From a bacterium (GTDB lineage Bacteria > Campylobacterota > Campylobacteria > Campylobacterales > Sulfurimonadaceae): DNA of 64,000 nucleotides. The stretch spans positions 186,001 through 250,000 of the forward strand of contig JAHJJX010000027.1 of the NCBI GenBank assembly GCA_018822665.1, written 5' to 3'. The position numbers were made by a program, and so were the translations under genes. The stretch's first letter is position 1. Each line of letters starts with the position of its first letter. The notes beneath the pieces were generated by a model. It did no database searches, was not told where the DNA came from, and saw nothing but the letters and a program-made list of their open reading frames with translations. Below are positions 1 to 18,826 of this stretch, in pieces.

Positions 1-38
1 TAAAGTAGACAAAATATGTCCACTTTATAGATTAAAAT
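1..38 (+). promoter_or_regulatory. WYL-type operator/promoter, site 1
   Basis: An inverted repeat TAGACA-AAATA-TGTCCA lies at 6-22. The dyad extends outward to TAAAG (1-5) and CTTTA (23-27), with a single mismatch across 11-bp arms. A -10-like TAAAAT at 33-38 follows exactly 10 nt after the repeat. The same layout recurs upstream of many genes in the first 19 kb. It serves the small gene at 68. The window edge may cut further upstream sequence. Confidence 0.75.
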
Positions 39-67
39 ACCTAAATAATTTAAAAAAGGAGTTCGTC

Positions 68-364
68 ATGTATCAAGCAACAATCACAAGAAACTTTAGG
101 GATGCCTATACGACTACACCAAAGGTATTGCTACTAAATGTTATAGATGAAAACGGAAGACTTTTTAGAGATCATTGTTGGGTAGTGATTTCTGATGCAC
201 TGGAAAGGTTTATCCCTCAAGACAATCATGTAAAAAATGTCATCACTTTTCATGGAAGAGTCAAAGAGTATCACTCGTTTGACTCCATGAGTACCATCAA
301 AAAGACATTTAGTTCTTTGAAGAAAATAGACTTACTAAGACAGATAAAAAGTATGTCGAAGTAA
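68..364 (+). CDS. Hypothetical protein, 98 aa
   Basis: A small soluble protein of 98 residues whose family I do not recognise. It has no signal peptide or membrane segment. The middle is aromatic and charged, and the C-terminus is basic (several Lys in the last 25 residues). An AAAAAGGAG ribosome site precedes the ATG. The gene sits alone behind operator site 1, so it is probably a member of the shared regulon in this accessory block. Function is unknown; its place beside helicases and toxin-antitoxin genes suggests an accessory or defence role, which is inference only. Confidence 0.7.
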   Translation: MYQATITRNFRDAYTTTPKVLLLNVIDENGRLFRDHCWVVISDALERFIPQDNHVKNVITFHGRVKEYHSFDSMSTIKKTFSSLKKIDLLRQIKSMSK

Positions 365-432
365 GGTGCAGTAAAAATCAAATAAAGTGAACTTTCGCTA
401 GAATGAAACAATATTTAAATTTAGGATTTATG

Positions 433-1446
433 ATGCAGTGGAAAAAAGAGACAATCACATTAGAAAATAACACGCAAGTAGAGGCGCAAGCCCCGGTCAT
501 TATCTCCGCAAGCCGTGCTACGGATATACCGACATTTTATGCTGATTGGTTTATCTCTCGCTGGGAAGCGGGTTATCTAAAATGGACAAATCCTTTCAAT
601 AATCAACCTCTATATGTCTCTTTTAAAAATGTCCTTGCTGTAGTGTTCTGGACAAAAAACCCACGCCCTATGTTTAAGTACTTGGATTACATGGACAAAA
701 ACATACCAAATTACTACTTTCAATATACGCTCAACGACTATGACAAAGAACTCTTTGAAGCAAAGGTGCCAAGTGTTGCAAGCAGGATAGAGAGCTTCAA
801 ACAACTCTCACAAAGACTAGGAAAGAATAGAGTCGTTTGGAGGTTTGATCCGCTCATGCTTACAGATACTATAGACGTCACAGAACTTTTACGAAGAGTA
901 AAAAACATTGGTGACCAACTTAAAAACCACACGCAAAAACTCGTTATTAGTTTTGCGGATATCGGAAGTTATAAAAAAGTTGAGAATAACTTTAAAAAAG
1001 AGCATGTCAACTACATAGAATTTACTGATGAGAGCATGGAAGAACTAGCAAAAGGACTCCAAGAGCTAAATAAAGAGTGGAATTTTGAAATAGGTACATG
1101 TTCAGAGAAGATAGACCTTGAAAAATACGCCATTGTCCATAATAAATGCGTAGATGATGACTTGATGGTAGAACTCTTTAGTCATGACAAAGAGCTCATG
1201 GAGTTTTTGGGTGTAGAAGTGCAGCAAGCAGACCTTTTTAGTGATGGGAAAATAGTAAAAAAAAGAAACCTCAAAGATAAAGGGCAAAGAGAAGATTGTG
1301 GCTGTGTCATGAGCAAGGACATAGGACAATATAACACATGTCCACATGAGTGCAACTACTGCTATGCTAACACCTCAAAAGAGCTGGCAAAGAAAAACTA
1401 CCAAAAGCATAAAGAGCATCCAAATGGTGAGAGCATCTTATTTTAA
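433..1446 (+). CDS. DUF1848 family protein
   Basis: A DUF1848-like protein of about 337 residues. The N-terminal part carries ISASRATDIP and FWTKNP-type motifs typical of this family. The C-terminus holds a Cys-rich motif (CGCVMSKDIGQYNTCPHECN, then YCYA) that resembles an iron-sulfur or radical-SAM-like cluster site; the reaction is not known. The frame is open from an ATG at 403, but that codon overlaps a -10-like TAGAAT (399-404). An AGGA at 423-426 fits the ATG at 433 (or 430), so I chose 433. No WYL-type operator precedes it. Confidence 0.75.
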   Translation: MQWKKETITLENNTQVEAQAPVIISASRATDIPTFYADWFISRWEAGYLKWTNPFNNQPLYVSFKNVLAVVFWTKNPRPMFKYLDYMDKNIPNYYFQYTLNDYDKELFEAKVPSVASRIESFKQLSQRLGKNRVVWRFDPLMLTDTIDVTELLRRVKNIGDQLKNHTQKLVISFADIGSYKKVENNFKKEHVNYIEFTDESMEELAKGLQELNKEWNFEIGTCSEKIDLEKYAIVHNKCVDDDLMVELFSHDKELMEFLGVEVQQADLFSDGKIVKKRNLKDKGQREDCGCVMSKDIGQYNTCPHECNYCYANTSKELAKKNYQKHKEHPNGESILF

Positions 1447-1456
1447 GTAGTAAATC

Positions 1457-1487
1457 TATGGTTACAACCATAATTTTAAGCTATAAT
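1457..1487 (+). promoter_or_regulatory. Palindromic operator with -10 box before the AAA/DUF4143 gene
   Basis: A perfect 16-bp palindrome (TATGGTTACAACCATA) lies at 1457-1472. TATAAT follows at 1482-1487, with 10 nt between the inner AACCAT arm (ends 1471) and the -10 box. That spacing equals the one in the WYL-type sites, but the arms differ. It is probably the operator of a different repressor. Confidence 0.55.
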
Positions 1488-1516
1488 TTTACAGACCCAT
1501 CAATAAAAGGAATAAA

Positions 1517-2701: not shown

Positions 2702-2713
2702 AAAAAGATTTTA

Positions 2714-2746
2714 AGGACAGAATGTGGGTAGAGAGTTTGATATGAT
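2714..2746 (+). promoter_or_regulatory. WYL-type operator/promoter, diverged site 2
   Basis: AGGACA-GAATG-TGGGTA at 2714-2730 is followed after exactly 10 nt by TATGAT (2741-2746). The arms are diverged but the spacing matches the other sites. It precedes the broken FRG gene, so it is probably decaying together with it. Confidence 0.45.
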
Positions 2747-2766
2747 TTTAAGAAATAAGGGAAAAT

Positions 2767-2889
2767 ATGGAGCCAATAACAAATTTTCTAAAAAATATAG
2801 ATGAGTTTATAACAAACGAAACCATAGATTTAAACAACTATGAAATATTTTATCGTGGTGAAAATAAATTTTATGGCTCTCAATGGTGA
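2767..2889 (+). pseudogene. FRG-domain protein, N-terminal remnant
   Basis: A 40-codon fragment starting at an ATG with GGGAAAAT upstream. It contains NYEIFYRGENKFYGS, the hallmark start of an FRG domain (Phe-Arg-Gly, a domain seen in toxin and defence-associated proteins). It stops at a TGA where the domain should continue. Nothing after it restores the FRG frame, so this is a truncated gene. It lies behind diverged operator site 2. Confidence 0.6.
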
Positions 2890-2891
2890 AA

Positions 2892-2996
2892 GTCGCAAAC
2901 ACAGTTCCTAGGAGAGGGTTTTATTGTGAGATGGAACTCTATAAGAGACGTGAGCTTGAAAACGATGAAATACCATTGATTGCCATACCCTATTGA
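2892..2996 (+). pseudogene. Short coding remnant, unknown
   Basis: A 34-codon open stretch without a start codon (RRGFYCEMELYKRREL, then LIAIPY) looks protein-like but has no clear family. It overlaps nothing and follows directly on the FRG remnant in another frame. I read it as part of the gene debris between 2.7 and 4.0 kb. Confidence 0.3.
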
Positions 2997-3045
2997 ATGT
3001 CATTGCAAAAGTAATGAATAAGTTCACAAAACAAAAGATGCTAAA

Positions 3046-3411
3046 ATGAACGAAAAGAAAAAACTAAAAATTGCAGTTGTATGAATTGGTCGTGCCGGAT
3101 ACGCAACTATAGACCTACTCAGGAAAGAAAAGCTTAGTCCAGAGATTTATACAATCAAATTTAATAAAAATACTGACTCAACTAGAATTGTGGGCGCAGA
3201 AGAGCTAGAGAAAACTAGGCTTGTAAATACAAATGGTAAGAATATTGCATTTGGGTATATACACGATGAATGGGAAAAGATGAAAGATGGAGATTATCTT
3301 GTAGAATTTAAATCATCCCCTAGTAGCTGGAGCAACTTAGTAGGTAGCGCAGGCATTAGACTCATGAGAGGAGAAGAAGTTATAAACACAATGATAACAC
3401 GTATGAATTGA
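3046..3411 (+). pseudogene. Rossmann-like protein with an in-frame TGA
   Basis: From the ATG at 3046 the reading frame runs KLKIAVV, then TGA (3082-3084), then IGRAGYATIDLL and on to TGA at 3411. Read through, it would be 121 residues with a glycine-rich nucleotide-binding-like start (VVxIGRAGY). One GGA-to-TGA change would explain the stop. The 3' part (from GTG 3190) remains open for 73 codons and ends LMRGEEVINTMITRMN. I do not recognise the family. It is probably a gene inactivated by a point mutation. Confidence 0.5.
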
Positions 3412-3464
3412 AATTATTCATTATTCAGGGATACTTGCGTCAGATGCGTTAGAGCAGAACAGTA

Positions 3465-3580
3465 ATTTTGTCCTAGGCAGAATCGATATTAGCAGTTTTG
3501 TGGATAAGCAAGCCCTTCTTTTAGGCTTTTTTCATTGCAAATCATACTGATTTTTGCTCCGACGTTGACTGCTGTCATCG
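3465..3580. repeat. Diverged intergenic repeat, copy A
   Basis: This non-coding stretch shares ordered matches (TAGGCAGA, GCAG plus a T-run, AGCCC, GCTCCG, TTGAC) with 19868-19985, which lies upstream of the ArdC-like gene. I aligned them by eye; similarity is patchy. Here it precedes the helicase fragment at 3618. It may be a shared regulatory or transfer-related element. Confidence 0.35.
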
Positions 3581-3617
3581 GCGGAGTTAAAATAGGCAGT
3601 ATGAAAAGCCTTTAAAA

Positions 3618-4013
3618 GTGGTGGCTCCTGAATCTCAAGGAAGATATGAAATGATACTCAACAAGCTTGCAAAAGATGCAAAAATAGAAAAACACTATGA
3701 AACAAGAAAAAAGAAGTGGTATAGCTTTTTTGCTCTTAAAGATATGTTTGTAGATGTAAAATATACCTATGCTTCAACTATCCACAAAGTTCAAGGTAGC
3801 ACTTATGAGACAGTGTATATTGACCTAACAGAGATAGAAAATATGAGAGACAAAGATATGATGTACAGACTTTTGTATGTAGCACTAACAAGGGCTAGTA
3901 AAGATGTAAAAATACTCTTGCCAAATAGCACAAACATGCTATTGGCAAAAATGCAGGATGCTATTTTAAACTCTCTGGATGAGGAGTTTAAAAATCTTGG
4001 GATAGGTTTATGA
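3618..4013 (+). pseudogene. C-terminal fragment of a Pif1/RecD-like helicase
   Basis: About 130 codons match the C-terminal end of the intact helicase at 11640-13106: the shared pattern is WY-FF--(K/R)DMF--V-Y--ASTIHK-QGSTYE, then the YVALTRAS motif (YVAITRAS in the intact copy). This is the UvrD_C_2 helicase end with motifs V and VI. Walker A and Walker B are missing, so it cannot be a working helicase. The GTG at 3618 is only the first possible start. It is a truncated paralogue left in the gene-debris patch. Confidence 0.7.
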
Positions 4014-4046
4014 TAAACAAAATACTGGTGTTGATAGTTATATGAT
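4014..4046 (+). promoter_or_regulatory. Possible decayed WYL-type operator, site 3
   Basis: The left half TAAACA-AAATA (4014-4024) matches the consensus well. The right arm (CTGGTG) does not. TATGAT stands at 4041-4046 in exactly the register of the other sites. A nearer -10-like TAGAAT (4071-4076) lies about the same distance from the start as in the gene at 17577. This could be chance. Confidence 0.25.
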
Positions 4047-4106
4047 GTGGTTTAATAAGTGAATTTTAGGTAGAATGACTAGAATATAACATATAAAGGA
4101 TTTATT

Positions 4107-6587
4107 ATAGCTGCTGCTGTTTTCCCATCATTAGAAAATATAAATAGATTGAAAGTAAAACCAACAGAAGGTGAGTTATACCTTATTGAAAAACTTATAG
4201 AACATTTTGCTAACGATGAAATAGAAATTTATTTTCAACCTTTTTTTAATGGTGATAGACCTGATATAGTTTTAATGAAGAAAAATGTTGGGATAACGGT
4301 CATTGAAGTCAAAGATTGGAATTTGTCAAAATATTATGTAAATCAAGATAACAAATGGCATCTAAACAATGGAACGAAAATTTTATCTCCATTTCAGCAA
4401 GTTTTTAATTATAAAGATAGTTTTTTTAATTTACATATTAATGGGCTTTTAGAAAAAAAGATACAAAATTTTTACTTTTATGGAAGAGTGAATGTGTTTG
4501 TTTATTTTCATAAAGCAAATCGAGAAGATATAAAAAAATTTTATGCAGAGCAAATTTCATATTGGCGAGAGAAAAAAAGGCAATTAGCCTTAAATAGAGC
4601 TAATCCAGATGATTTTAATCAACAAGTAGATTTAATTTCTAAAAAACAACAACGAATAGAAAGAGATATGAAGCTTTCAATTGGATATGACACTATACAA
4701 AATATAAAGTTACCGCAAGAAGATAATACTGGACTTTTTTCTGATTCAATTTTTATAGAATTTCGACGCTATTTACAACCTCCATACCATACACTTGAAC
4801 AAGGTAAAGAGATAAGCTATACCCCTACACAAAAACAATATTTCAATAGCAAGTCTGTTCATGAGAAAATAAGAGGAGTGGCTGGTTCAGGCAAAACTGT
4901 TCTGTTAGCAAAAAGAGCTGTAAACGCACATATGAGACATGGAGGTAGAGTATTAATACTAACATACAATCTTACTTTGATGAGCTATATTCATGATAAG
5001 ATAAGCGATGTGAGGGAAGGTTTTCATTGGAATAATTTTTATATTATCAATTATCATGAATTTTTTGCACAAAGAGCGAATGAAGTTGGATTTGATATTA
5101 TTCTCTCTGATGAAATAAAGAAAAAATTAGAAAAAATTCATTCTTTAGAAGAGAAGAACAGAATCAAAGATGAATATTATGAAAAGCAATATTATTCAAA
5201 TTTAAATTTTTTCGATGGTTGCGAAGATATAACAGAGAAATACACCTCTATTTTTATCGATGAAGTTCAAGATTATAAACCAGAGTGGATAAAAATAATT
5301 CGTAAATATTTTGCTCATGAGAATACAGAATTAGTTTTATTTGGAGATGAAAAGCAAAATATTTATGAGAGGAGTCTTGATGAAGAAAAAAGATTTACTA
5401 CTCCACAAGGTTTTGGGAAATGGAAAAACTTATCTCAAAGTATTAGACAAAAAGAGAGTGGTAGCAGAGTATTGCAATTATTGAAAAATTTTCAAGAGGC
5501 TTTTTTTTCTTCAAAATATGTACTTGATGAATATGATAATAGTTTACAACAGACATATCTTGATCTTGAGTTATTTAAATCTAAAACATATGAAAATTTA
5601 AATGACAATAAAAAAGAAATTGTTGATAAAATTTATGAAGAGATTAGAAAAAATAATTTTCATCCTAATGATGTTTGCATTCTTGCATCAAAGATAAAAA
5701 TTTTACAAGAAATTGATGAAATCATTAGAAAAGATTTTAATGAAAAAACAATAACTACATTTGAACCATTGGAAAATAGAGTTGATATATCTCTTAGAAA
5801 AAATAAAAAAGTAGCTTTTAATCTCAATAGTGGAGTAATTAAGCTTTCTACTATTCATAGTTTTAAAGGGTTTGAGTCAAAAATTATTTTCCTGATAGTT
5901 AATGACAGTGACAGTGAAGAAGTAATCTACACAGGTATATCACGTACTAAATCTGACCTTATGATTTTTTCATCTATAAACAGTAGATATAATGAATTTT
6001 TTAGTGCTAAAATGCAAGTAGAAAACAATGATGATCAACAAGACATTTTTGAGATATTAAAAGAGTGTGTCTCAAAGGCAACAATGATAGATTTGCATTA
6101 TGATGTACACGGTAAAATAATAAATCAAATGAATGTAAAACCATACAAGATATTATTTATGAATGAAAATTTTTATTTGGCATGTGAAGTTGACAATGAA
6201 TATAAGTTTACAATGTTTAGAATTGGTAAGATTCAAAAAGTTCAAAAACATGATATAACATTTTACAAAGACCTAGATATAGTAGATTTTATAAATAATA
6301 TTCAAACGCCATTTGCAAAATACAAACCAAATTACAAAAACCATCTAATAGACATAAAAGTAGAAGTACTTAAGCAAAAGGCAGAATTTTTTAAAGCAAA
6401 GAAGTTCATGCCTTCTCAAAATATCATTGAAACAAGAGATAATGGAAATCTCATCATAACATTCCAAGTAACACAAGAATTGGAAATCGAAGAATTGATA
6501 AAAAGATGGTTGCCATACCTAAAAGTTCTAGAGCCTTTGACTCTCGATGAAAAAATTAAAAATGATATAAAGCTTTATTTAAATTAA
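4107..6587 (+). CDS. NERD-UvrD-type helicase fused to a C-terminal WYL domain
   Basis: An 826-residue protein if it starts at ATA 4107, or 812 from the TTG at 4149. An N-terminal NERD nuclease-like domain has DRPDIVLM and VIEVKDW, the PD-(D/E)xK pattern. A superfamily 1 helicase follows, with Walker A GVAGSGKT, Walker B FIDEVQD, GDEKQNI, LSTIHSFKGFE and YTGISRTK. The last 165 residues are a WYL-type domain closely similar to the regulator at 16195 (shared SFK/TFQ-VTQELEIEELIK). It probably acts on DNA, with WYL sensing a nucleic-acid ligand (inference). The leader AAAGGATTTATT is identical to that of the gene at 17577, but ATA stands where that gene has ATG. The homology MxxxxFPSLENINRLK-like start supports 4107. 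The body is very AT-rich. Confidence 0.8.
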   Translation: MAAAVFPSLENINRLKVKPTEGELYLIEKLIEHFANDEIEIYFQPFFNGDRPDIVLMKKNVGITVIEVKDWNLSKYYVNQDNKWHLNNGTKILSPFQQVFNYKDSFFNLHINGLLEKKIQNFYFYGRVNVFVYFHKANREDIKKFYAEQISYWREKKRQLALNRANPDDFNQQVDLISKKQQRIERDMKLSIGYDTIQNIKLPQEDNTGLFSDSIFIEFRRYLQPPYHTLEQGKEISYTPTQKQYFNSKSVHEKIRGVAGSGKTVLLAKRAVNAHMRHGGRVLILTYNLTLMSYIHDKISDVREGFHWNNFYIINYHEFFAQRANEVGFDIILSDEIKKKLEKIHSLEEKNRIKDEYYEKQYYSNLNFFDGCEDITEKYTSIFIDEVQDYKPEWIKIIRKYFAHENTELVLFGDEKQNIYERSLDEEKRFTTPQGFGKWKNLSQSIRQKESGSRVLQLLKNFQEAFFSSKYVLDEYDNSLQQTYLDLELFKSKTYENLNDNKKEIVDKIYEEIRKNNFHPNDVCILASKIKILQEIDEIIRKDFNEKTITTFEPLENRVDISLRKNKKVAFNLNSGVIKLSTIHSFKGFESKIIFLIVNDSDSEEVIYTGISRTKSDLMIFSSINSRYNEFFSAKMQVENNDDQQDIFEILKECVSKATMIDLHYDVHGKIINQMNVKPYKILFMNENFYLACEVDNEYKFTMFRIGKIQKVQKHDITFYKDLDIVDFINNIQTPFAKYKPNYKNHLIDIKVEVLKQKAEFFKAKKFMPSQNIIETRDNGNLIITFQVTQELEIEELIKRWLPYLKVLEPLTLDEKIKNDIKLYLN

Positions 6588-6659
6588 AATAAAACTTTAC
6601 AATTGTACTAATTAAAAATTTTAGTAAAACTATTTACAAAACAAAAAAGGAAATAAATT

Positions 6660-8870: not shown

Positions 8871-8944
8871 TTCCTTGAGGTGTTATGATAAAATACATTA
8901 GTACTTGTAGGCATATTTAATCAAAACCTTTGGGATTAAAACAT

Positions 8945-11264: not shown

Positions 11265-11297
11265 TAGACAAAATATGACCAAATAAAGCAATAAAAT
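11265..11297 (+). promoter_or_regulatory. WYL-type operator/promoter, site 4
   Basis: TAGACA-AAATA-TGACCA lies at 11265-11281. After exactly 10 nt comes TAAAAT (11292-11297). It drives the 42-residue gene at 11322. Confidence 0.75.
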
Positions 11298-11321
11298 TGC
11301 GAAAAATATTTGGAGAACACT

Positions 11322-11450
11322 ATGACAAAAATAACCATCAAAGTCCCAAAACTCAAATCAAGAGTTGTTTGGGGATTCAGTCCTGCTTCAAGAGTTAAAG
11401 CAAGTAAAAAAGTTTATAGTAGAAAAAATGTAAAAATTCTTATAGAATAA
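11322..11450 (+). CDS. Small basic protein, 42 aa
   Basis: A 42-codon ORF with TTGGAG six nucleotides before its ATG. The product is strongly basic (Lys/Arg spread through it) with a central RVVWGFSPASRVK segment and a KKVYSRKN stretch. It has no membrane segment. I cannot name the family, but the good ribosome site and its own operator/promoter (site 4) make translation likely. It is the first of several very small genes under this promoter type. A role as nucleic-acid-binding peptide is possible from charge only. Confidence 0.6.
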   Translation: MTKITIKVPKLKSRVVWGFSPASRVKASKKVYSRKNVKILIE

Positions 11451-11501
11451 AATCAAGCACTCCACTAAGTACCCCTTCTTATTTTAAAATCTATTCACCC
11501 T

Positions 11502-11534
11502 TTGACAAAATACGACCATCTAAACATCTATAAT
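11502..11534 (+). promoter_or_regulatory. WYL-type operator/promoter, site 5
   Basis: TTGACA-AAATA-CGACCA lies at 11502-11518. After 10 nt comes a perfect TATAAT (11529-11534). Downstream is only the 13-codon ORF at 11562, and then the next operator. Confidence 0.75.
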
Positions 11535-11561
11535 CTCGCAACCAAAAAAAGGATCACACTC

Positions 11562-11603
11562 ATGGTAAAAAATAAAACTTTCAAAACAGATAGAAATTTA
11601 TAG
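11562..11603 (+). CDS. Possible 13-residue peptide
   Basis: ATG with AAAAAGGATC upstream, 13 codons (MVKNKTFKTDRNL), stop TAG at 11601-11603. The stop lies inside the TAGACA arm of the next operator (site 6). The peptide is basic. It could be a leader peptide, a small toxin or antitoxin, or not translated at all. A dedicated promoter with a perfect -10 supports at least transcription of this 100-nt unit. Confidence 0.35.
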   Translation: MVKNKTFKTDRNL

Positions 11604-11633
11604 ACAAAATACGACCATAAATACTTGTAAACT
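11601..11633 (+). promoter_or_regulatory. WYL-type operator/promoter, site 6
   Basis: TAGACA-AAATA-CGACCA lies at 11601-11617. After 10 nt comes TAAACT (11628-11633). The helicase ATG at 11640 is only 6 nt past the -10 hexamer, which predicts a leaderless transcript. Confidence 0.75.
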
Positions 11634-11639
11634 TTCTTT

Positions 11640-13106
11640 ATGGAAAATTTAACACACAATAAACTTACAAATCATCAAGCTACTGTTTATAAAGCTCTAA
11701 ACTCTAAGATAGAGAGCATTTTGGAGAGTAAAATTCTTATGTCTTATAATGTGAGTGATTACATGTTATCTCTTATGGGTGCTGCTGGAACGGGAAAAAC
11801 TTACCTTACAACTGAGATAGTGAAATTTCTAAAAAACTCTAAAATCGACTTTACCATAACTGCACCGACACATAAAGCTGTAAATGTTTTGGCACGAAGT
11901 CTTGAAAAAAACAATGTTGAAGCTCCATGCAAAACTATCCACTCATTTTTGGGAATTAAGCCATTTAAAGATTACGATACCGGGATAGAGAAATTCGTAA
12001 TTGACAAAGCTACCAAACAAGACCAAAGAACAACTGTGCTTATTGTAGATGAAAGCTCTATGATTGGTGATGAGCTTTATGGGTATATCGCTGAAAAAAT
12101 AAAAGAAAATAAAATAAGCTGTGTATTATTTGTAGGAGACCCATACCAACTTCTTCCTATTAGCGGCGACAACCATCAAATTTACCGGCTAAAATATCAG
12201 TACGAACTCCAAGAGATAGTAAGACAGGCTAAAGACAGCAGTATCATAAAAATGTCAACACAAATACGAGACATGATTGCGCGCAAAACCTTTATTGATT
12301 TAAAAAAGTTTATTGAGCTTAATCAATATGCAGACATCACATACTTTCATAATGACAAAGATTTTTTAGAAGATTTTTATAAAAATGAAAGATGGTTTGA
12401 AGAAGATAAAATCATAGCTACTTATAAAAACAAAGATGTAGATGCTCTCAACAAAATAGTGAGAAATAAATACTGGGAACAAAAAAATGTTTCATTTTCT
12501 GACACACTTAGAGCCGGTGACAAACTGAGATTTGTAGATGCCTATAGTGCAAGAGAGATAACAATATATCATAATGGACAAATCGTAGAACTAGAGTATG
12601 CGCAAAAAGAGTATCATGAAGCATTAAACATCCAATACTGGGACTGTAAGGCAGTAAACGCCATGCAGCAACAAGTATTTAGAGTAGTTGACCCAGCCAG
12701 CATGTCAAAGTTTAACGACAAACTAAAAGCTCTGTCCGAAATTGCTAAGAGAGCGCCTCAAGCTGAAAAGAGCAAACTTTGGTATACATTTTTCACAACA
12801 AGAGATATGTTCGCAAATGTCCAGTACATTCACGCTTCAACCATACACAAACTCCAAGGGAGCACCTACGAGTCTTGCTATGTCGATATATTTCAACTTA
12901 TTGACAACCCATACATGAGCATCGAGGAAAAGTACCGATTGTTTTATGTTGCCATCACAAGAGCCTCGAAAAATTTGAAATTATTTGTGTCAGATTTTAA
13001 TAAAGCAAACACTCTCTCAAACACTTTGACCGTTAAAAAGATGCAACTAGATTTGCAACAAATTCATCAAGAAGTAGATGACATGCTAGAGGGTATTTTT
13101 AAATGA
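11640..13106 (+). CDS. Pif1/RecD-like ATP-dependent DNA helicase
   Basis: 488 residues. Walker A GAAGTGKTYL at 47-56, Walker B LIVDESSMIGD near 134-144, motif III GDPYQLLPI, and a C-terminal UvrD_C_2 region with ASTIHKLQGSTYE and YVAITRASK. This is the AAA_30/Dda-like superfamily 1B family that unwinds DNA 5' to 3' in repair, recombination or conflict systems. It has no ribosome site, and the start codon coincides with the expected transcription start, so translation is probably leaderless. A truncated paralogue lies at 3618. Regulation is by operator site 6. Confidence 0.85.
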   Translation: MENLTHNKLTNHQATVYKALNSKIESILESKILMSYNVSDYMLSLMGAAGTGKTYLTTEIVKFLKNSKIDFTITAPTHKAVNVLARSLEKNNVEAPCKTIHSFLGIKPFKDYDTGIEKFVIDKATKQDQRTTVLIVDESSMIGDELYGYIAEKIKENKISCVLFVGDPYQLLPISGDNHQIYRLKYQYELQEIVRQAKDSSIIKMSTQIRDMIARKTFIDLKKFIELNQYADITYFHNDKDFLEDFYKNERWFEEDKIIATYKNKDVDALNKIVRNKYWEQKNVSFSDTLRAGDKLRFVDAYSAREITIYHNGQIVELEYAQKEYHEALNIQYWDCKAVNAMQQQVFRVVDPASMSKFNDKLKALSEIAKRAPQAEKSKLWYTFFTTRDMFANVQYIHASTIHKLQGSTYESCYVDIFQLIDNPYMSIEEKYRLFYVAITRASKNLKLFVSDFNKANTLSNTLTVKKMQLDLQQIHQEVDDMLEGIFK

Positions 13107-13139
13107 TAGACAAACTTTGACTAAGTAAATATGTATAAT
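13107..13139 (+). promoter_or_regulatory. WYL-type operator/promoter, site 7
   Basis: TAGACA-AACTT-TGACTA lies at 13107-13123. After 10 nt comes TATAAT (13134-13139). It drives the pair of small genes at 13223 and 13506, leaving a leader of about 75 nt. Confidence 0.75.
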
Positions 13140-13222
13140 TTTGTAATAGTTCGTTAAAGATGTAAAATATAGTATTTGAATAGAAAGCAAAAATGCTAAA
13201 TCTATCTTATTAGGAAATATAT

Positions 13223-13528
13223 ATGAGTGAAATCAGAATCCAATCAAAGGTAATTGAAAGAAGTAAAAACGTTACCTTTACAGCAGTTTTAGATAAAAAA
13301 ATACAAGTGGAGGTTTTTATGTCGAGAAAACTTTTTGAAGAGATTGGTGGTTCCAATAATAACAACCCAAACAAAATATTAAGTGGTAATTTGTGGACTT
13401 TTGAGTGCTTAGTTGAAGATAAAATAAATGAAATGGAGCGCGCAGGAACAGCAATACCTGCAGAGTTAGAGATAGATGCGGAAGATATAAGGAGATACTT
13501 TCAAAATGAAAATTTTACAGATAGATAA
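13223..13528 (+). CDS. Hypothetical protein, 101 aa
   Basis: A small soluble acidic protein with no signal or membrane segment. The N-terminal half looks like a small beta-rich domain (VTFTAVLDKKIQVEVFMSR); the C-terminal half is helical. A DUF1488-like relation is conceivable but not shown. Its 3' end overlaps the next gene by 23 nt, a sign of translational coupling. It is under operator site 7. The overlapping pair has the size and layout of a toxin-antitoxin unit, but no motif proves that. Confidence 0.6.
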   Translation: MSEIRIQSKVIERSKNVTFTAVLDKKIQVEVFMSRKLFEEIGGSNNNNPNKILSGNLWTFECLVEDKINEMERAGTAIPAELEIDAEDIRRYFQNENFTDR

Positions 13529-13745
13529 CTTCATATTTGACAGTGCTACACATATAATTAAAAATGGTGATAGAGTTTTTCATTTTAAGGGTTATAATTT
13601 TCAAGCAAACGAATTTACTTTATCAAATGAAATATCCACTTCAAAAGAGTTTGAGTTATCATTGTCCGCATTTATATCTTCAAAGGAAAAACAAAAGATT
13701 TTTTTAGATTGGCTAGAAAGAAACTATCCAGAGTGTTACCTCTAA
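13506..13745 (+). CDS. Hypothetical protein, 79 aa
   Basis: A 79-residue acidic protein starting inside the end of the previous gene, with AAGGAG 11 nt before the ATG. It ends LDWLERNYPECYL. I do not recognise a family. The overlap and shared promoter imply that it works together with the 101-residue protein. Confidence 0.6.
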   Translation: MKILQIDNFIFDSATHIIKNGDRVFHFKGYNFQANEFTLSNEISTSKEFELSLSAFISSKEKQKIFLDWLERNYPECYL

Positions 13746-13786
13746 GTTAGTGCATAAAATACAAATTAATACTAGGATAATTATTG

Positions 13787-13819
13787 TAGACAAAATATGA
13801 CTACAGATGAATATATAAT
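13787..13819 (+). promoter_or_regulatory. WYL-type operator/promoter, site 8
   Basis: TAGACA-AAATA-TGACTA lies at 13787-13803. After 10 nt comes a perfect TATAAT (13814-13819). The next ORF is only 31 codons (ATG 13852 to stop 13947, no ribosome site), so this promoter may make a small RNA, a peptide, or the leader of the gene pair at 14016. Confidence 0.75.
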
Positions 13820-13885
13820 ACTCAATAACAGACTTACAATCTAACTAAAAAATGCAAAGAAGAAACAACAGAAAAACTTTACATT

Positions 13886-13902
13886 TAGTCAAACCATATC
13901 TA
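13886..13902 (+). promoter_or_regulatory. Decayed second operator copy
   Basis: TAGTCA-AACCA-TATCTA with its flanks matches 23 of 27 bases of the site 9 region (13879-13905 against 15757-15783 by eye). No -10 box stands at the usual distance. It lies inside the doubtful 31-codon ORF and looks like a duplicated promoter fragment. Confidence 0.35.
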
Positions 13903-13945
13903 TATGATTACTTTGGAAAATTTAAACTACTTTCTAATAAATATT

Positions 13946-13990
13946 AAATTTACATAAAAAATACATTATATACATAATATTGTAAATTTA
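13946..13990. promoter_or_regulatory. Inverted repeat upstream of the AbiE-like pair
   Basis: A perfect 10-bp inverted repeat, TAAATTTACA (13946-13955) and TGTAAATTTA (13981-13990), has a 25-nt AT-rich spacer. A -10-like TTATTATAAG follows just before the ATG at 14016. It is a plausible autoregulatory site for the winged-helix antitoxin-like protein. Confidence 0.4.
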
Positions 13991-14015
13991 TCATTTTTTA
14001 TGTTATTATAAGTTT

Positions 14016-14999
14016 ATGAAAGCAAAAAAAGAAATATTAGAATATCTTCAAAACAGTACTAATTGGCAAATCGTATCAAAGAAAGTCGATGTAAATGTTC
14101 CTCTTTATATGAAAGCAGGATATGAACTTTGGGGTGCTCAGATACAGGGCATAAGTGTTGTATTTGCAAGGGTTAAAGATACCAACACTGACATAAGAGT
14201 TCATCAAAACGCTATCAAGCGACTAGCTGAGATTACTTCATGCAATGCTGTTCTGGTTTTTGAAAAGCTTGATGCCAGAAGTGTTGATAGTTTAATTAAG
14301 AAGCATAGTGCATTTGTTATCAAAGATAAACAAATCTATATGCCTTTTGCATTGCTTCAAATACAAACCCAAAACTTTAAAAAAGTTCCCAAGAGAGAAG
14401 TACCCTTAAATAGTGATGCAGATATGATCTTAATTGGCTATTTAGACAATAAAATAGGTAATGGCTTGATGATAAAAGAGATTGCGCAAGTGATTGACAG
14501 AGAACTACGTGCCTCCTCACAAGCTTTAAAGATTTTAGAGAACTTGGGATATCTTCAAATAGAAGTAAAAGGTCGAAGTAGATATATATATTTTATCTCA
14601 CAAACCGAAGTTTATGAGCGTTTAAAAGAGGATGCTAAATCACCAATAAAATATACTTTTTTTGCTAAAAATTTTGCAAATAAAATAGTATATAGCGGAT
14701 ATACTGCATTATCAAAATATTCTACATTAGTCGAGGAAAAGATAAAAACAGTTGCAATTTCTCATAAGCAGCTTACAGCACAGCAGCTAGAGGCTTTGCA
14801 ATGTGACGAGGATGAAGCTACACTAAAGATTGAAGTTTGGAATAGAGATCCATCTGTTTTCTCTCATGATAATACAATTAGCCCTTTATATGTACTACGG
14901 TTTTTTCAAAACGATGAAGATGAGAGAGTGCAAGAAGCAATTGAACACATAGAAGCAAAAATAGTAGAAAAATTGAAGGGTAAAGATGAAAGAGACTGA
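14016..14999 (+). CDS. AbiEi-like winged-helix antitoxin candidate
   Basis: 327 residues. A winged-helix DNA-binding segment lies near 130-200 (IGNGLMIKEIAQVIDRELRASS, shortened here: helix LMIKEIAQVI and recognition helix ASSQALKILENLG). The remainder has no membrane or catalytic signature. Its end overlaps the following nucleotidyltransferase-like gene by 14 nt. This arrangement fits an AbiE-type (type IV) toxin-antitoxin pair in which the first gene is regulator and antitoxin. The family call rests on layout and fold pattern and could be wrong. It is probably autoregulated through the inverted repeat just upstream. Confidence 0.55.
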   Translation: MKAKKEILEYLQNSTNWQIVSKKVDVNVPLYMKAGYELWGAQIQGISVVFARVKDTNTDIRVHQNAIKRLAEITSCNAVLVFEKLDARSVDSLIKKHSAFVIKDKQIYMPFALLQIQTQNFKKVPKREVPLNSDADMILIGYLDNKIGNGLMIKEIAQVIDRELRASSQALKILENLGYLQIEVKGRSRYIYFISQTEVYERLKEDAKSPIKYTFFAKNFANKIVYSGYTALSKYSTLVEEKIKTVAISHKQLTAQQLEALQCDEDEATLKIEVWNRDPSVFSHDNTISPLYVLRFFQNDEDERVQEAIEHIEAKIVEKLKGKDERD

Positions 15000-15747
15000 T
15001 TACGCAGGTTTGAGCCATTTTCAAGATTACTGTAAAGATTTAGATGATTATTATGTAGTTGTTGGAGGTTTTGCGACTTTGATGCTCCTAGATAGTGAAC
15101 TTGAAAATCATGGAAAGGCAACTTTTGATATTGACCTGGTCCTTTTGACAACAAACTCAGTAGAGATGACAAAAAGAATAAAAGAGTATGTCAAAGAGGG
15201 AGGCTATAAGATTCAAATTGGTTCAAAAGACCAATACCAATACTATCGATTTATAGAACCTCAAAAAGAAAATTTTGCAAAAGAGATAGAGCTATTTGCA
15301 TCAAATGAAAATAGCTTAGAACTTGATGATGAACAAAGAATTATCCCAATTGATGCTGAAGATGGATTATATTCGCTGTCGGCCATTATGCTTGACCCAG
15401 AATATTTTGAGATGATTAAAAATAATGTCGAGAAAAAGCATAGAGCACCTTGTACAAATACTCAAGCAACTATTATGCTAAAGATGTCAGCATTTTATGA
15501 TTTGAAAAACCGTGATGATAAAAAGTGGAAAAAACATCGTAAAGATATACTAAAACTAGCACTTCTTTTAAGAGGTGATGAGAAGATAAATTTAGTTGGC
15601 AGAATGCAGCAAGATTTTGATGCATTTATAGAACACCTAAAACAAGATATTGACAAAAAAATGCTCAAAGCTATCGTAGATAAACTGCCTATCGAGAAAG
15701 AGCTGGTTATAGAAATATTGCAAAAAGTATTTCAAAAATACGAATGA
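14986..15747 (+). CDS. AbiEii-like nucleotidyltransferase (toxin candidate)
   Basis: 253 residues with a nucleotidyltransferase-fold start: VVVGGFATLML (GG motif, about residues 25-35) and ATFDIDLVLL (D-x-D metal site, about 46-56), then AKEIELFA as the likely third acidic strand. This is the pattern of AbiEii/MenT-like enzymes, which add nucleotides to RNA or proteins. ATG lies inside the upstream gene (GGGTAAAG ribosome site), so the two are coupled. I infer a type IV-like toxin-antitoxin unit. Confidence 0.65.
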   Translation: MKETDYAGLSHFQDYCKDLDDYYVVVGGFATLMLLDSELENHGKATFDIDLVLLTTNSVEMTKRIKEYVKEGGYKIQIGSKDQYQYYRFIEPQKENFAKEIELFASNENSLELDDEQRIIPIDAEDGLYSLSAIMLDPEYFEMIKNNVEKKHRAPCTNTQATIMLKMSAFYDLKNRDDKKWKKHRKDILKLALLLRGDEKINLVGRMQQDFDAFIEHLKQDIDKKMLKAIVDKLPIEKELVIEILQKVFQKYE

Positions 15748-15764
15748 ATACAAAAATTTACATT

Positions 15765-15797
15765 TAGCCAAAATATGTCTATAATTAAAACTACAAT
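15765..15797 (+). promoter_or_regulatory. WYL-type operator/promoter, site 9
   Basis: TAGCCA-AAATA-TGTCTA lies at 15765-15781. After 10 nt comes TACAAT (15792-15797). It drives the repeat-protein gene and the WYL regulator 26 nt downstream of it, so the regulator probably controls itself here. Confidence 0.75.
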
Positions 15798-15836
15798 ACT
15801 CCCACAAAAGCAAAAAGCATTTGAAAAGGAGAGTTT

Positions 15837-16169
15837 ATGTACAAAAAATTAACATTAGCAAGTTTAGTAGCCATTGCAAGTGTTGTGTCGGTAAATGCCG
15901 ATGGCTATAGAAACAGTGATGGCAGTTATGGTAATCGTGTTGGCAATAGCATGTATCACAGCGACGGCAGTTCCAGCACAAAAAGTGGCAATAATGTTTA
16001 TCATAGTGATGGAAGCTATAGTAACCGTGTAGGCAATAGTACATACAATAGCGATGGTTCTTCTAGCAACAAAGTAGGCAACAGTATCTACAATAGTGAT
16101 GGCTCTTCTAGTAACAAAGTCGGTAACACCTACTACCATAGTGACGGAACCTCCACAACCGTAGATTAG
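15837..16169 (+). CDS. Secreted 15-residue-repeat protein
   Basis: 110 residues. Residues 1-21 form a typical signal peptide (basic MYKK start, hydrophobic core, cleavage after VNA). The mature part is five full copies plus a partial copy of a 15-residue unit, Y-x-S-D-G-S-x-S-N-x-V-G-N-x-x. The Asp-Gly/Asn-rich repeats suggest a cell-surface or periplasmic protein. AAGGAG precedes the ATG. It is the first gene of an operon with the WYL regulator, which is unexpected company for a secreted protein. Confidence 0.7.
   Translation: MYKKLTLASLVAIASVVSVNADGYRNSDGSYGNRVGNSMYHSDGSSSTKSGNNVYHSDGSYSNRVGNSTYNSDGSSSNKVGNSIYNSDGSSSNKVGNTYYHSDGTSTTVD
15908..16150 (+). repeat. 45-bp tandem coding repeat
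   Basis: Five 45-bp units encode the 15-residue repeats of the secreted protein; the last two full units are nearly identical in DNA. Copy number could vary by slippage or recombination. Confidence 0.65.
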
Positions 16170-16194
16170 TAAAAAAGAGAAGGGAAAAACAAAT

Positions 16195-17154
16195 ATGACA
16201 AACCAAACAGCAAGAGTCTTAGAACTTTTAAAACGATTTAATGACGGGAAGAAAGTATGCATTGAAGCTTTGCAGAACGAAGTTTTATGGGAAGGCAAAA
16301 GCGAGAGGACGATTCGCAGAGATTTGGATGTTATCAAACTTGTTTTTCCTGAATCATTTGAACTCATTCGGGGTGACAAGGGATGCTATAAAGCCATCAC
16401 CAAAGGGGCATTTGAAAACTTTTTGACGCCAGAGACTATCTCCATGATGGCACAGGTTTATAATGTTGCGCAAAAGAGCAATCTTTTTGCAAACATCGAC
16501 CTTTGTGAATCAGATAAAAAACTCTTAGAGTCACAGCTCAAAAAATCCAAAGATTGCTATATGTTTATAGATAAACCTTATGAGAACAAAAAGAGCGACT
16601 ATCAACTCTTCAAAGAGATGGAAAATGCTATCTATCATCAGCAACATCTCATGGTTAAATATACCATAAATGATAAAACAGAGGTAATGGATATTAAACC
16701 CTATAAAATCCTCTTTATCAACCAAAACTTCTATCTTGTGTGTGAAGTCGTAGATAGCCAATACGAACTTACGCAACTAAGAATCTCAAATATCACCCAG
16801 GCGCAGATGCTCTCAAAACAGTTTCATAAAAACTATGAAATAGAAGATTTTATCAAAGAGATTCAAACGCCGTTTTCTACCTATACAAGCGGCTATAAAA
16901 AGTATATGATAGAGGTCATCGTAGAGGTCAAAAACGAGAAAGCTCGTTTTTTCAAAGCAAAAAACTTTCTCCCATCGCAGCGAATTGTAGAACAAAAGGC
17001 AGATGGGAGTTTGGTTTTATCTTTTAAAGTGACACAGGAGCTTGAGATAGAAGAGCTTATAAAGAAATGGCTGCCGCACATGAGAGTCATAGAGCCGCTA
17101 TCACTCAAAGAGAAGATTGAAAATGAGTTAAGAGAGTATCTTCTTCTTGCATAA
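16195..17154 (+). CDS. HTH-WYL domain transcription regulator
   Basis: 319 residues. An N-terminal DeoR/HTH_11-like helix-turn-helix lies at about 5-60 (ERTIRRDLDVIK recognition helix). A WYL domain occupies about 150-240 and a WYL C-terminal extension 240-319. WYL regulators such as BrxR, CapW and PafBC bind nucleic-acid ligands and often control defence genes; most characterised ones next to defence genes are repressors. It is 26 nt after the repeat-protein gene with no separate promoter visible, so it is under operator site 9. It is the obvious candidate to bind the TAGACA-N5-TGTCTA sites. Its C-terminal half matches the tail of the helicase at 4107. Confidence 0.85.
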   Translation: MTNQTARVLELLKRFNDGKKVCIEALQNEVLWEGKSERTIRRDLDVIKLVFPESFELIRGDKGCYKAITKGAFENFLTPETISMMAQVYNVAQKSNLFANIDLCESDKKLLESQLKKSKDCYMFIDKPYENKKSDYQLFKEMENAIYHQQHLMVKYTINDKTEVMDIKPYKILFINQNFYLVCEVVDSQYELTQLRISNITQAQMLSKQFHKNYEIEDFIKEIQTPFSTYTSGYKKYMIEVIVEVKNEKARFFKAKNFLPSQRIVEQKADGSLVLSFKVTQELEIEELIKKWLPHMRVIEPLSLKEKIENELREYLLLA

Positions 17155-17164
17155 TTTATCAAAA

Positions 17165-17404
17165 GTGATAACAAATAAATCTTTCATACTTCTTGATATG
17201 TGCCAAAGTGGCGCAATTATTGATAAGCTTATTGACGAGAAGGCAATTATGCCTATTTCGGAAAATAAAAAGAGCTTACAGTTACAAATTTGACTAAATT
17301 ATCTTGAAACAGAAGTTCCAAAAATCACTCAAGAGATATTTCATTTTGAGCAAACTCCACAAAAATACTTAAATGGTGATACTTTTTCAATAAGCACTAA
17401 ATAA
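17165..17404 (+). pseudogene. Caspase-like peptidase remnant
   Basis: An 80-codon frame broken by one TGA (17291-17293). It contains FILLDMCQSGAIIDK, the catalytic-Cys motif (D-x-C-x-S-G) of the caspase/C14 fold with Cys at 17201, and later ITQEIFHFEQTPQKYLNG, which fits the end of that domain. The catalytic His half and any start codon are missing, replaced by the end of the WYL regulator gene. It is the relic of a caspase-like protein, a class often used as a suicide effector. Confidence 0.6.
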
Positions 17405-17515
17405 AGCATCTCTTCCCTAAACTATCCACTAAATACTTTTGTAAATACATGAGTAGTTAGACTACATATCTGCACCTTTAATTAATCAAGTCTTCAAAGC
17501 AAATCATCTATATTA
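17405..17515. other. Non-coding spacer
   Basis: Between the caspase remnant and operator site 10 I see no ORF, repeat or hairpin of note. Confidence 0.5.
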
Positions 17516-17548
17516 TGGACAGAACTTGTCTATTTAAGCCTTTATAAT
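17516..17548 (+). promoter_or_regulatory. WYL-type operator/promoter, site 10
   Basis: TGGACA-GAACT-TGTCTA lies at 17516-17532. After 10 nt comes TATAAT (17543-17548). The AAAGGA ribosome site and ATG (17577) of the AAA+ gene follow. Confidence 0.75.
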
Positions 17549-17576
17549 ACCCCCCATACAAATTAAAGGATTTATT

Positions 17577-18797
17577 ATGGGCGACTGGGATTATGACAGA
17601 AACATGGACTTTGGGGCAACGATGCAAGATATTAAAATAAACAGCACTGTTTTACTCAGTGCAGAACAAGACCAGTTTCAAGTGCGTGATACGGAGATTT
17701 ATTTTCAAGATGCTTTGAGTGCCCAAGAGTATGCGAAGAATAACCCGGGGGCCATAGTCGTACGCAAAACGACGCAACCACAAGCTCCTATTGAGTACTC
17801 TGCTGTGAAAGAGCTTCTGGTTAAAAAAACGCCGAGTATGATTTTGGAGCATTTAAGCAAACATATTATTTCTCAAGATGAGGCTAAAAAAGAGATTGCA
17901 CTGGCTATGTACTATCATAGCCTAAAATCAAAATTTTCAACCAACGAAGATATTGGCACTAATGGTCCCATCATGATGGTTGGTCCTACGGGCTCCGGAA
18001 AAACATTTATTGTGCAGAAAGCTTGTGAGTTTATTGATACTGTTTATATCCATGTTGATACTTCAAGCATGGTACCAGAGGGGATTGTAGGGTATGCTAT
18101 TGGGGATTTGGCAAAAGAAATTTTAAGAGTATCAAATTACAACATCCATAAAGCAACTCATTGTGTAGTATTTTTTGATGAGATGGATAAATTATTTAGT
18201 AGTGATAGTGAATCAAGTTATGGGGACAGAATCGCAAACCAGTTACTTAGGCTTGTAGAAGGCTCAATCATAAAAATATCATATACACATACTGAAAGAG
18301 AACGTCTGCCCCATGCAATTGAAACACTTGACAGCTCAAATATGCAGTTCATATTAGGCGGTGCATTTCAATGGATACTTGATGAAAAAGCAGAGGCTAA
18401 ATCAACAGTTGGATTTGCAAGATCAATTACACAAGAAAAAAATCATTCAATCACTTTGGAAGATCTTTATGAGCAAGGGATACCAAAAGAGCTTTTAGGG
18501 AGAATGAACACTATTGTAAATCTGCATCCACTAACCGAGCATGATTACTACAAAATCCTCACCCAAAGCGAGAGCTCCCCGCTCAAAGAGTTTATCAAAA
18601 AAATAGAGTTTCATGGAGACAAAGTAGAGATACAAGAGGATACTTTAAAACAAATATCTAAGATTGCAGCCAGTAGCAAACTCGGCGTCAGGTCAATCAA
18701 GCAAACTCTCAAAGCTATGTTTAAAGATGTACTGTTTAGTACTCCGGAGGGAGCGTGTAAAACACATTATATAGAGTGCAAAGAATATCCTAGTTGA
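17577..18797 (+). CDS. ClpX-like AAA+ ATPase
   Basis: 406 residues. Walker A GPTGSGKT at about 136-143, Walker B CVVFFDEMDKLF near 200, arginine-finger/ELLGRMN region near 306, and sensor 2 LGVRSIKQTL near 375. The layout is that of ClpX, but the N-terminal zinc-binding domain is absent and replaced by about 90 unrelated residues, and no ClpP-binding IGF loop is evident. It may be a dedicated unfoldase or remodeller for a mobile or defence system. The codons follow AAAGGATTTATT. It is regulated by site 10. Confidence 0.75.
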   Translation: MGDWDYDRNMDFGATMQDIKINSTVLLSAEQDQFQVRDTEIYFQDALSAQEYAKNNPGAIVVRKTTQPQAPIEYSAVKELLVKKTPSMILEHLSKHIISQDEAKKEIALAMYYHSLKSKFSTNEDIGTNGPIMMVGPTGSGKTFIVQKACEFIDTVYIHVDTSSMVPEGIVGYAIGDLAKEILRVSNYNIHKATHCVVFFDEMDKLFSSDSESSYGDRIANQLLRLVEGSIIKISYTHTERERLPHAIETLDSSNMQFILGGAFQWILDEKAEAKSTVGFARSITQEKNHSITLEDLYEQGIPKELLGRMNTIVNLHPLTEHDYYKILTQSESSPLKEFIKKIEFHGDKVEIQEDTLKQISKIAASSKLGVRSIKQTLKAMFKDVLFSTPEGACKTHYIECKEYPS

Positions 18798-18826
18798 CAT
18801 AATATGTCCACCAAACATCCTACTAT
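18794..18826 (+). promoter_or_regulatory. WYL-type operator/promoter, site 11
   Basis: TTGACA-TAATA-TGTCCA lies at 18794-18810. After 10 nt comes TACTAT (18821-18826). It overlaps the stop of the AAA+ gene and serves the short ORF at 18875 and probably the two lipoproteins. Confidence 0.7.

Follow-up and report, generated by a model that had tools for sequence, protein, structure and literature searches.

What could place a row of unrelated accessory genes under common control? The question is raised by the left part of a 64,000-nucleotide stretch of the 2.5-Mb genome of a marine sulphur bacterium, a Sulfurimonas (G000:C20:186001-250000, here called the window), in which one promoter element recurs before gene after gene. 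A sequence-only reading had described the element as an inverted repeat close to a -10 hexamer, and had proposed that a WYL-domain regulator encoded at 16195-17154 on the plus strand, here called W1, controls the set. Comparison with 134 other genomes of the genus supports this proposal. This comparison brings out the element and its fixed geometry, a genetic linkage to W1 and to a second WYL subfamily (W2), and the list of its targets. We consider it rather likely that the element, which we term the W-box, would be the binding site of this small WYL family (W1, in some genomes W2), acting to switch on the island as one regulon.

Operator sites in the window and the host genome

The operator comprises 17 bp (TAGACAAAATAyGwCyA), followed by exactly 10 variable bases (N10) and TAnnnT. 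A matrix was built from nine sites (6, 11265, 11502, 11601, 13107, 13787, 15765, 17516 and 18794) and run over 84 kb, namely the window itself and the 20 kb to its left. The ten top sites scored 18.2-26.4 bits, and the independent place ranked after them reached 14.7. One of the ten is new: located on the minus strand at position -13 (-13 to -29, just outside the window) and followed by N10 and TATTAT, it is the divergent partner of the site at 6. An arms-only pattern (TDGWCA-N5-TGWCYA, up to two mismatches) had 90 matches in the 84 kb, and the added demand for N10-TAnnnT kept exactly the ten. In the host genome, TWGACAAAATAYGWCYA with up to two mismatches was matched 25 times, compared with 12 for the reversed pattern; N10-TAnnnT was present at all nine matches within the block (C20:185971-204810) versus one of the 16 elsewhere.

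All nine operators in the window are on the plus strand, each followed by N10 and its hexamer. The first, TAGACAAAATATGTCCA (6-22; TAAAAT at 33-38; score 26.1), stands before open reading frames (ORFs) 68-364, 403-1446 and 1517-2701. At 11265-11281, TAGACAAAATATGACCA (TAAAAT; 26.4) precedes the micro-ORF 11322-11450; it is followed by TTGACAAAATACGACCA (11502-11518; TATAAT; 24.2) and by TAGACAAAATACGACCA (11601-11617; TAAACT; 25.6), the last directly before the helicase gene 11640-13106. TAGACAAACTTTGACTA (13107-13123; TATAAT; 21.7) is found before ORFs 13223-13528 and 13506-13745, and the -10 hexamer of TAGACAAAATATGACTA (13787-13803; TATAAT; 25.2) lies some 200 nt before ORFs 14016-14999 and 14986-15747. 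The operon comprising ORF 15837-16169 and W1 is headed by TAGCCAAAATATGTCTA (15765-15781; TACAAT; 23.0), the ClpX-like gene 17577-18797 by TGGACAGAACTTGTCTA (17516-17532; TATAAT; 18.2), and the lipoprotein-like genes 18973-19437 and 19434-19781 by TTGACATAATATGTCCA (18794-18810; TACTAT; 22.2).

The sequence-only reading had counted eleven sites, with the -10 hexamer exactly 10 nt after the repeat. This distance holds at all nine sites above, each with TAnnnT, and the nine, including the diverged one at 17516, stand out from the rest of the window. The other two, at 2714 (score 6.8) and 4014 (score 1.5), belong with the background. Both carry TATGAT at offset 10, yet 69 places in the window score at least 6 on the operator and 334 at least 2, and among the 698 places scoring at least 0 below the nine true sites TAnnnT occurs at this offset in 16, two of them in the 6-8 band that holds 2714. 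Decay of former operators in front of decayed genes is one possible reading of the two, although nothing sets them apart from chance. The region between them, 2702-4013, is itself decayed, with the short broken start of an ORF and a C-terminal PIF1/UvrD-like helicase piece (3618-4013); the two sites lie at its ends. Also abandoned was the repeat in the literal form first given, TAGACA-N5-TGTCTA, which has no exact match in the genome and, if three mismatches are allowed and the -10 is ignored, does not exceed chance in the window (31 matches versus a shuffle mean of 33.3). The signal becomes visible only with TGWCYA as the right half and with the -10 demanded at its fixed distance.

Promoter geometry in relatives

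Stretches from relatives were chosen around operator matches, some around W1 genes, and were scanned with the matrix without any demand for a -10 hexamer. Among 74 distinct sites scoring at least 17 in 17 other Sulfurimonas genomes, 71 have TAnnnT at an offset of exactly 10. No other offset exceeds 20 of the 74, and the 20 at offset 12 are, by our reading, largely the same hexamer read two bases on. The ten spacer bases are variable (0.13-0.67 bits per position), in contrast to the constant arms and the constant hexamer, which is close to the -10 consensus. An A is found 7 nt after the hexamer in 69 of the 80 sites with a -10, and if this is taken as the start, the operator would extend from -39 to -23, with its centre at -31 and TGwC at -28 to -25. 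The site G011:467086 (score 25.3) lies upstream of a reverse-transcriptase fragment and a csm locus, and a role as CRISPR promoter was considered for it and rejected; its TATAAT is at offset 11, making it one of the three misses. A number of the islands are closely related, and their sites cannot all be counted as independent, orthologous promoters being common to G005, G022, G032 and G038.

The element also has a direction. At 90 sites outside the host genome, the -10 lies on the side given by the matrix-preferred strand in 74, on both sides in nine, on the opposite side in four and on neither in three. Divergent gene pairs (G000, G022, G040; loci L168, L176 and L177) have two W-boxes, each with its own N10-TAnnnT, and none is shared. 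The -35 element is poor or absent: the best match to TTGACA at spacers of 16-18 was 2/6 in 67 of 93 sites and 3/6 in 24. A -35 hidden within the operator was rejected for these spacers; the TTGACA-like left arms sit 21 nt from the -10.

For genome-wide scans a strict site was defined as the strict operator pattern with N10-TAnnnT, the same pattern reversed serving as control. Strict sites were found in 15 of 135 Sulfurimonas genomes (control, 1/135) and in eight of 397 genomes drawn from across the class (control, 0/397). The 17-mer alone with one mismatch was uninformative in the genus, with matches in 74 of 135 genomes and similar control counts in most.

Linkage of W1 and the operator

Full-length W1 orthologues occur in 12 of the 135 genomes, the host included (51-91% identity besides W1 itself); fragments in G006 and G091 were excluded from this count. 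Strict operators are present in 11 of these 12 genomes versus four of the 123 others (Fisher P = 3.6e-12), and W1 or W2 in 13 of the 15 strict-site genomes versus three of the 120 others (P = 1.3e-13). The genes behind 102 operators in 18 genomes encode 224 proteins, which fall into 84 families. The family of widest distribution is that of the WYL regulators, found behind operators in 12 of the 18 genomes (11 with W1, one with W2); the next is found in nine. Two of the 12 islands, those of G006 and G111, had been selected for carrying W1, and the W1 behind the operator in G006 is a contig-end fragment. In G006, G011, G039, G040, G068 and G111 the end of the box is 42-48 nt upstream of W1. The distance is 412-414 nt in G000, G005, G022, G032 and G038, where one small gene intervenes.

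The association extends beyond the genus. Ten Sulfurimonas loci were excluded from 33 W1-relative loci, and the remaining 23 were scanned; they are assigned to Sulfurovum, Arcobacter, Aliarcobacter, Poseidonibacter, Sulfurospirillum, Campylobacter, Nautiliaceae and others, labels such as Gracilibacteria being doubtful. They contain 42 operators, 29 with N10-TAnnnT, versus 2.55 (0.0) per set in 20 Markov-shuffled sets. An operator ends 48-60 nt before the W1 match in eight of the 23 loci; four have none. The W1 of a cultured host, Poseidonibacter ostreae SJOD-M-5 (locus L178), is 47% identical. Near W1 relatives of 36-37% identity from another family of the class (L203-L207) we found altered boxes, TATACACAATATGTCCA and TAGACACTATATGTCTA, with N10-TATAAT kept; these drifted boxes should be useful for studying co-evolution of regulator and operator. 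In the class draw, five of nine genomes with a W1 of at least 48% identity have strict sites versus three of 388 others (P = 8.6e-8).

The helicase encoded at 11640-13106 provides a further comparison, having relatives in six other genomes. The box lies directly upstream in the host genome, G005, G009 and G127, where W1 or W2 is present (4/4), and is missing in G045 (54% identical), G004 (41%) and G087 (35%), where neither was found (0/3); a stop interrupts the gene copies of G004 and G087. Taken together, co-occurrence, gene position, the loci outside the genus and the helicases favour W1 as the regulator of the set, as first proposed, and suggest that the W1/W2 family very probably acts on the operator.

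These data bear on the idea that the boxes are copies of one mobile promoter, spread as a repeat or cassette, with no common regulator. As such copies would be, the boxes are grouped within a single accessory block, and for some of them orthology between related islands is clear. What they have in common, however, is the 17-mer, the -10 at a distance of 10 nt and the A at the likely start, but not the spacer or the flanks; and their presence across genomes follows W1/W2, down to the helicase family that goes without a box where neither regulator was found. We regard this explanation as extremely improbable.

A second WYL subfamily

The helix-turn-helix of W1 was not found at E 0.01 in five operator-bearing genomes of the genus (G009, G026, G052, G119 and G127), and this absence led us to W2, a second WYL subfamily. 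The reading had called W1 the only dedicated WYL regulator in the window; the box at 15765 does stand before its operon, but elsewhere W2 also accompanies the operator. W2 is present in four of the seven genomes that have sites and no W1 (G009, G026, G127 and G405 of the class draw) and lies on the contig of the sites except in G026, where two pieces are on another contig. Loci encoding W2 include L136:4473-5423, L150:6788-7744, L071:3342-4286 and L139. The proteins have an unusual helix-turn-helix and their genes are near type III CRISPR or MYG1-like genes, with W2 adjoining CRISPR-associated or MYG1-like genes in G011, G097 and G127. A W2-like protein of G049 (34% identity) was not counted as W2, and that genome has no strict site. 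From these associations W2 is a possible alternative reader of the W-box.

Several observations weigh against a strict pairing of regulator and operator. Sites without W1 were found in seven genomes (G009, G026, G052, G119 and G127 of the genus, G405 and G484 of the class draw), and in three of these, G052 (71% complete), G119 (88%) and G484 (98%), W2 was not found either. Conversely, four of the nine class-draw genomes with W1 have no strict sites. Two of them, G111 and G459, carry boxes of a looser kind immediately upstream of W1; in the others, G304 and G445, the W1 copy has a reported internal stop, and G445 has two looser boxes on that contig while G304 has none in 18 kb. The genomes with W1 fragments, G006 and G091, are without strict sites, and no box scoring at least 13 was found before W1 in G097 and G117. 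Two of the eight W2 genomes of the genus, G026 and G122, also have no strict sites; no operator lies near the W2 gene of G122 (locus L225), and the strict scan of the genus gave no match in this genome, which speaks against W2 as a reader. G484, with neither regulator, and G122, with W2 and no sites, count against a tight rule.

Conceivably, another island-encoded DNA-binding protein binds the box, and W1 and W2 are frequent passengers. The three genomes with operators and neither regulator would agree with this, as would the AAA+ family of ORF 17577, all eight members of which are in operator genomes, so that other island genes co-occur with the box as well. Yet no other family is found behind the box in as many genomes as the WYL regulators, W1 possesses a winged helix, and the box ends 42-48 nt upstream of W1 in six genomes of the genus and 48-60 nt upstream in eight loci outside it. 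N10-type boxes persist near relatives of only 36-37% identity, and two of the three genomes lacking both regulators are incomplete. We regard this explanation as very unlikely.

Structure and proposed mode of action of W1

W1, the putative operator-binding protein, has 319 amino acids and a winged helix-turn-helix (wHTH)-WYL-WCX plan. The WYL domain (PF13280) scored 22.8 bits against a cut-off of 21.8 (E 9e-5) and the C-terminal WCX domain (PF25583) 40.4 bits against 23.9 (E 3.8e-10). In the structural model (mean predicted local distance difference test score 73), residues 1-69 match winged-helix chains (PurR, Z 8.5, root-mean-square deviation (rmsd) 2.3, 66 residues), and DriD, BrxR, CapW and PafBC are matched from residue 1 on. 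A profile search gave DriD chains as the best solved relatives (E 4e-4 to 2e-3). By fold, DriD again leads (Z 13.9, rmsd 12.3, 179 residues aligned), followed by BrxR (12.2, 13.6, 210), CapW (12.1, 7.3, 160) and PafBC (12.0, 15.4, 252), the four scores lying within two units; W1 and DriD share 17-19% identity in structure alignments.

At E 1e-10 the genome contains a single further match to W1, the WYL part (42% identity) of a NERD-SF1 helicase-WYL-WCX fusion encoded at 4149-6587 on the plus strand. No credible operator lies directly before this gene. Its start is uncertain because homology with the G040 relative begins, by eye, upstream of the TTG at 4149, the triplet facing the ATG of the relative being ATA.

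Two known WYL activators have comparable promoters. DriD of Caulobacter crescentus activates an SOS-independent DNA damage regulon from sites at one distance from the -10, covering -35 elements with 1-2/6 matches (PMC12340889). It has the wHTH-WYL-WCX plan of W1, and its pseudo-palindromic sites at a fixed -10 distance over a poor -35, at several promoters of one regulon, resemble the W-boxes; unlike the repair and related genes of that regulon (recJ, dnaG, bapE, didA), the targets here form a defence and accessory island with many genes carrying their own box. The motif of PafBC, a sigma-adaptation activator of mycobacteria, is given as tTGTCRgtg, 8 nt, TAnnnT, so that TGTC ends 12 nt before TAnnnT (PMC5656591), as TGwC does in the W-box, and the domain plan is the same. 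PafBC is reported to be a heterodimer of which the PafB half reads the -26 motif, with no binding without RNA polymerase (PMC11804915); here, by contrast, there is a full palindrome and a single gene. The geometry of the W-box, with its fixed -10 distance (71/74 at 10 nt, -39 to -23) and poor or absent -35, would be that of the DriD/PafBC type. SiwR of Mycobacterium smegmatis is likewise described as a WYL activator; its imperfect palindrome of 19 bp is located between the -35 and -10 regions, and its action is presented for one adjacent operon (PMC10693628).

We propose the following scheme. Many island transcription units carry their own module, consisting of the W-box, 10 variable bases, the -10 and a likely start 7 bases on. 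As the operator is palindromic, W1 would bind as a homodimer at -39 to -23, in place of the missing -35 element, and would touch RNA polymerase or sigma, recruiting it to an otherwise weak promoter in the manner of DriD or PafBC. Contact with RNA polymerase is suggested by the fixed spacing over unconserved sequence, the locked orientation, the separate boxes of divergent genes and the lack of a recognisable -35. The trigger would probably be a nucleic-acid ligand in the WYL pocket, such as single-stranded DNA, at phage attack or DNA damage, and W1, lying behind its own W-box, would add positive feedback. By analogy with DriD, single-stranded DNA has about an even chance of being the ligand. 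R196 and Y180 of W1 are invariant in 27 sequences; against this part of the scheme, only one of the arginines in the DriD stretch WRLDRM aligns in W1 (R196), so that a pocket for single-stranded DNA is tentative and the ligand a proposal by analogy.

Alternatively, W1 might be an island repressor of the BrxR/CapW kind, covering the -35 region, silencing its targets, and being released by a ligand made or exposed during infection. BrxR (BREX) and CapW (CBASS) are WYL repressors, the CapW boxes overlapping the -10 and the BrxR box lying after it, and in the accounts given they are the nearest functional precedents among defence-linked WYL proteins (PMC9122588, PMC9122601). They share with W1 the wHTH-WYL-WCX fold, defence-gene neighbours and a box near the regulator's own promoter. 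These precedents tell against activation, and near-consensus -10 hexamers, autoregulation and the closeness of the four fold scores would suit a repressor too. Campylobacterota promoters often have no clear -35, and its absence is for that reason weak evidence of an activator. A blocker, however, needs neither an exact 10-nt spacer over unconserved sequence, nor a fixed orientation, nor one box for each divergent promoter. Nor is the position that of BrxR or CapW, at or downstream of the -10: the operator ends 10 nt before it in the ten sites of the host and in all but three of the 74 elsewhere. Where those repressors have one or two boxes per locus, as reported, up to 13 W-boxes were counted per island stretch scanned, all with one exact upstream position. 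The reading had left it open whether the bound protein would block or replace -35 contacts; the fixed spacing favours replacement without deciding between them. We consider it quite likely that W1 activates rather than represses, and island-wide repression rather unlikely.

Genes behind the operator

As a whole, the target set resembles an accessory island rich in defence genes more than it does a metabolic regulon. That the targets are otherwise unrelated, as first stated, is borne out both in the window, where helicase, AAA+, DUF1848, small secreted or lipoprotein-like and micro-ORF genes are found behind boxes, and in relatives, where unrelated defence genes are. Behind the box in relatives, directly or in an operon, are genes coding for SSB, for DarT together with a NADAR or macro partner, for proteins resembling ZorB2 and ZorA2, for a reverse transcriptase of the UG17 type, for a ShosA/DprA-like protein and for Cas6 and Cas10. 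Also encoded there are PIF1 helicases and a DnaB-like one, an ExoX-like exonuclease, MYG1-like proteins, a protein with VWA and another of the TPR-caspase kind. The linkage to defence loci known from BrxR and CapW is thereby found here as well, in ZorA2/ZorB2, ShosA, RT_UG17, DarT and Cas10. In G097 the box of a DarT-macro pair has perfect arms and an unusual centre, and a matrix score of only 7.7. Families were assigned by library scans of chosen representatives, namely 30 island proteins (26 of them among the 224) and ten more.

In the window, the genes behind the operator at 6 code for a 98-amino acid protein (68-364), a DUF1848 protein (403-1446; Pfam 1.2e-93) and an AAA_14 ATPase (1517-2701), all on the plus strand, as are the genes that follow. 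The SF1 (PIF1/RecD-like) helicase at 11640-13106 contains AAA_30 (Pfam, 4.6e-25) and UvrD_C_2. The ClpX-like AAA+ protein (17577-18797) has an N-terminal part of about 80 residues, and its relatives share a motif like AQEYAKNNPG. A search with it gave matches in 129 of 135 genomes, mostly of about 30% identity and by our reading ClpX. The family was defined at 45% identity or more and has eight members in the genus, itself included; six are in genomes with strict operators and two, in G026 and G111, in genomes with looser ones. The basic micro-ORF 11322-11450 specifies 42 amino acids (41-45 in the family) with a motif like RVxWGFxPxxRVxxSKKxYSRK, and recurs in the islands of G009, G022, G040 and G097, in several cases behind a W-box.

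Some further features of the islands were noted. An Ankyrin-HisKin-conflict kinase adjoining a protein with inactive receiver (iREC) and receiver domains is encoded at 6660-11224; pairs related to these two by clustering lie behind W-boxes in G005, G011, G022 and G117. An N-terminal FtsZ/tubulin GTPase piece of about 100 amino acids, too short for a full FtsZ, is present in several islands (L139:15846-16169, PF00091, the G009 copy), with similar short ORFs in G052, G068 and G127. A phage origin of the module was considered and rejected: a collection of viral contigs gave no confirmed W1 relative (82 pattern stretches) and no strict operator match.

Significance

The co-ordination of many unrelated defence systems in one island is largely an open matter, and the defence-linked WYL proteins compared here, BrxR and CapW, are local repressors. 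Examples of wider control are described in other bacteria. RptR of E. coli represses a composite island of DarTG2 and a type I restriction-modification system, and so resembles W1, in the role proposed here, as one regulator of a composite defence island; unlike W1, it acts through direct repeats (minimal TAGCTA) in one promoter, and its abstract gives no WYL label (PMC12255303). The Gac/Rsm system of Pseudomonas also co-regulates several phage defence systems, though post-transcriptionally and chromosome-wide (PMC11888443). VC1772, beside ddmDE in Vibrio cholerae, is a candidate WYL regulator in a defence region, with a role described as under study (PMC12409362). The ingredients, that is, WYL regulators, defence islands and activation of the DriD type, are known. 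Among the matches listed in our literature searches, none described their combination in one exact module, repeated up to 13 times in an island stretch and common to unrelated defence systems in several families of the class, and none dealt with a WYL regulon of this kind in the clade.

Since the switch sits at a fixed distance before many gene groups and travels with one regulator family, one signal probably controls many unrelated defences together. To our knowledge, LexA is absent from this clade of Campylobacterota. Tentatively, and somewhat short of an even chance, we suggest that the portable module (W-box, N10 and -10) may be an entry ticket to Campylobacterota defence islands, by which W1 or W2, triggered by single-stranded DNA, would switch on the whole arsenal at once. 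Zorya-like systems, DarT pairs, DRT, ShosA, type III CRISPR, SSB and helicases would then take part in an island-borne, LexA-free immune SOS response. One activator-like operator stands before many units of plastic islands in several Campylobacterota families, which predicts one signal, one regulator and a spacing rule, and the W-box motif would allow new defence genes to be found by their promoter rather than by homology.

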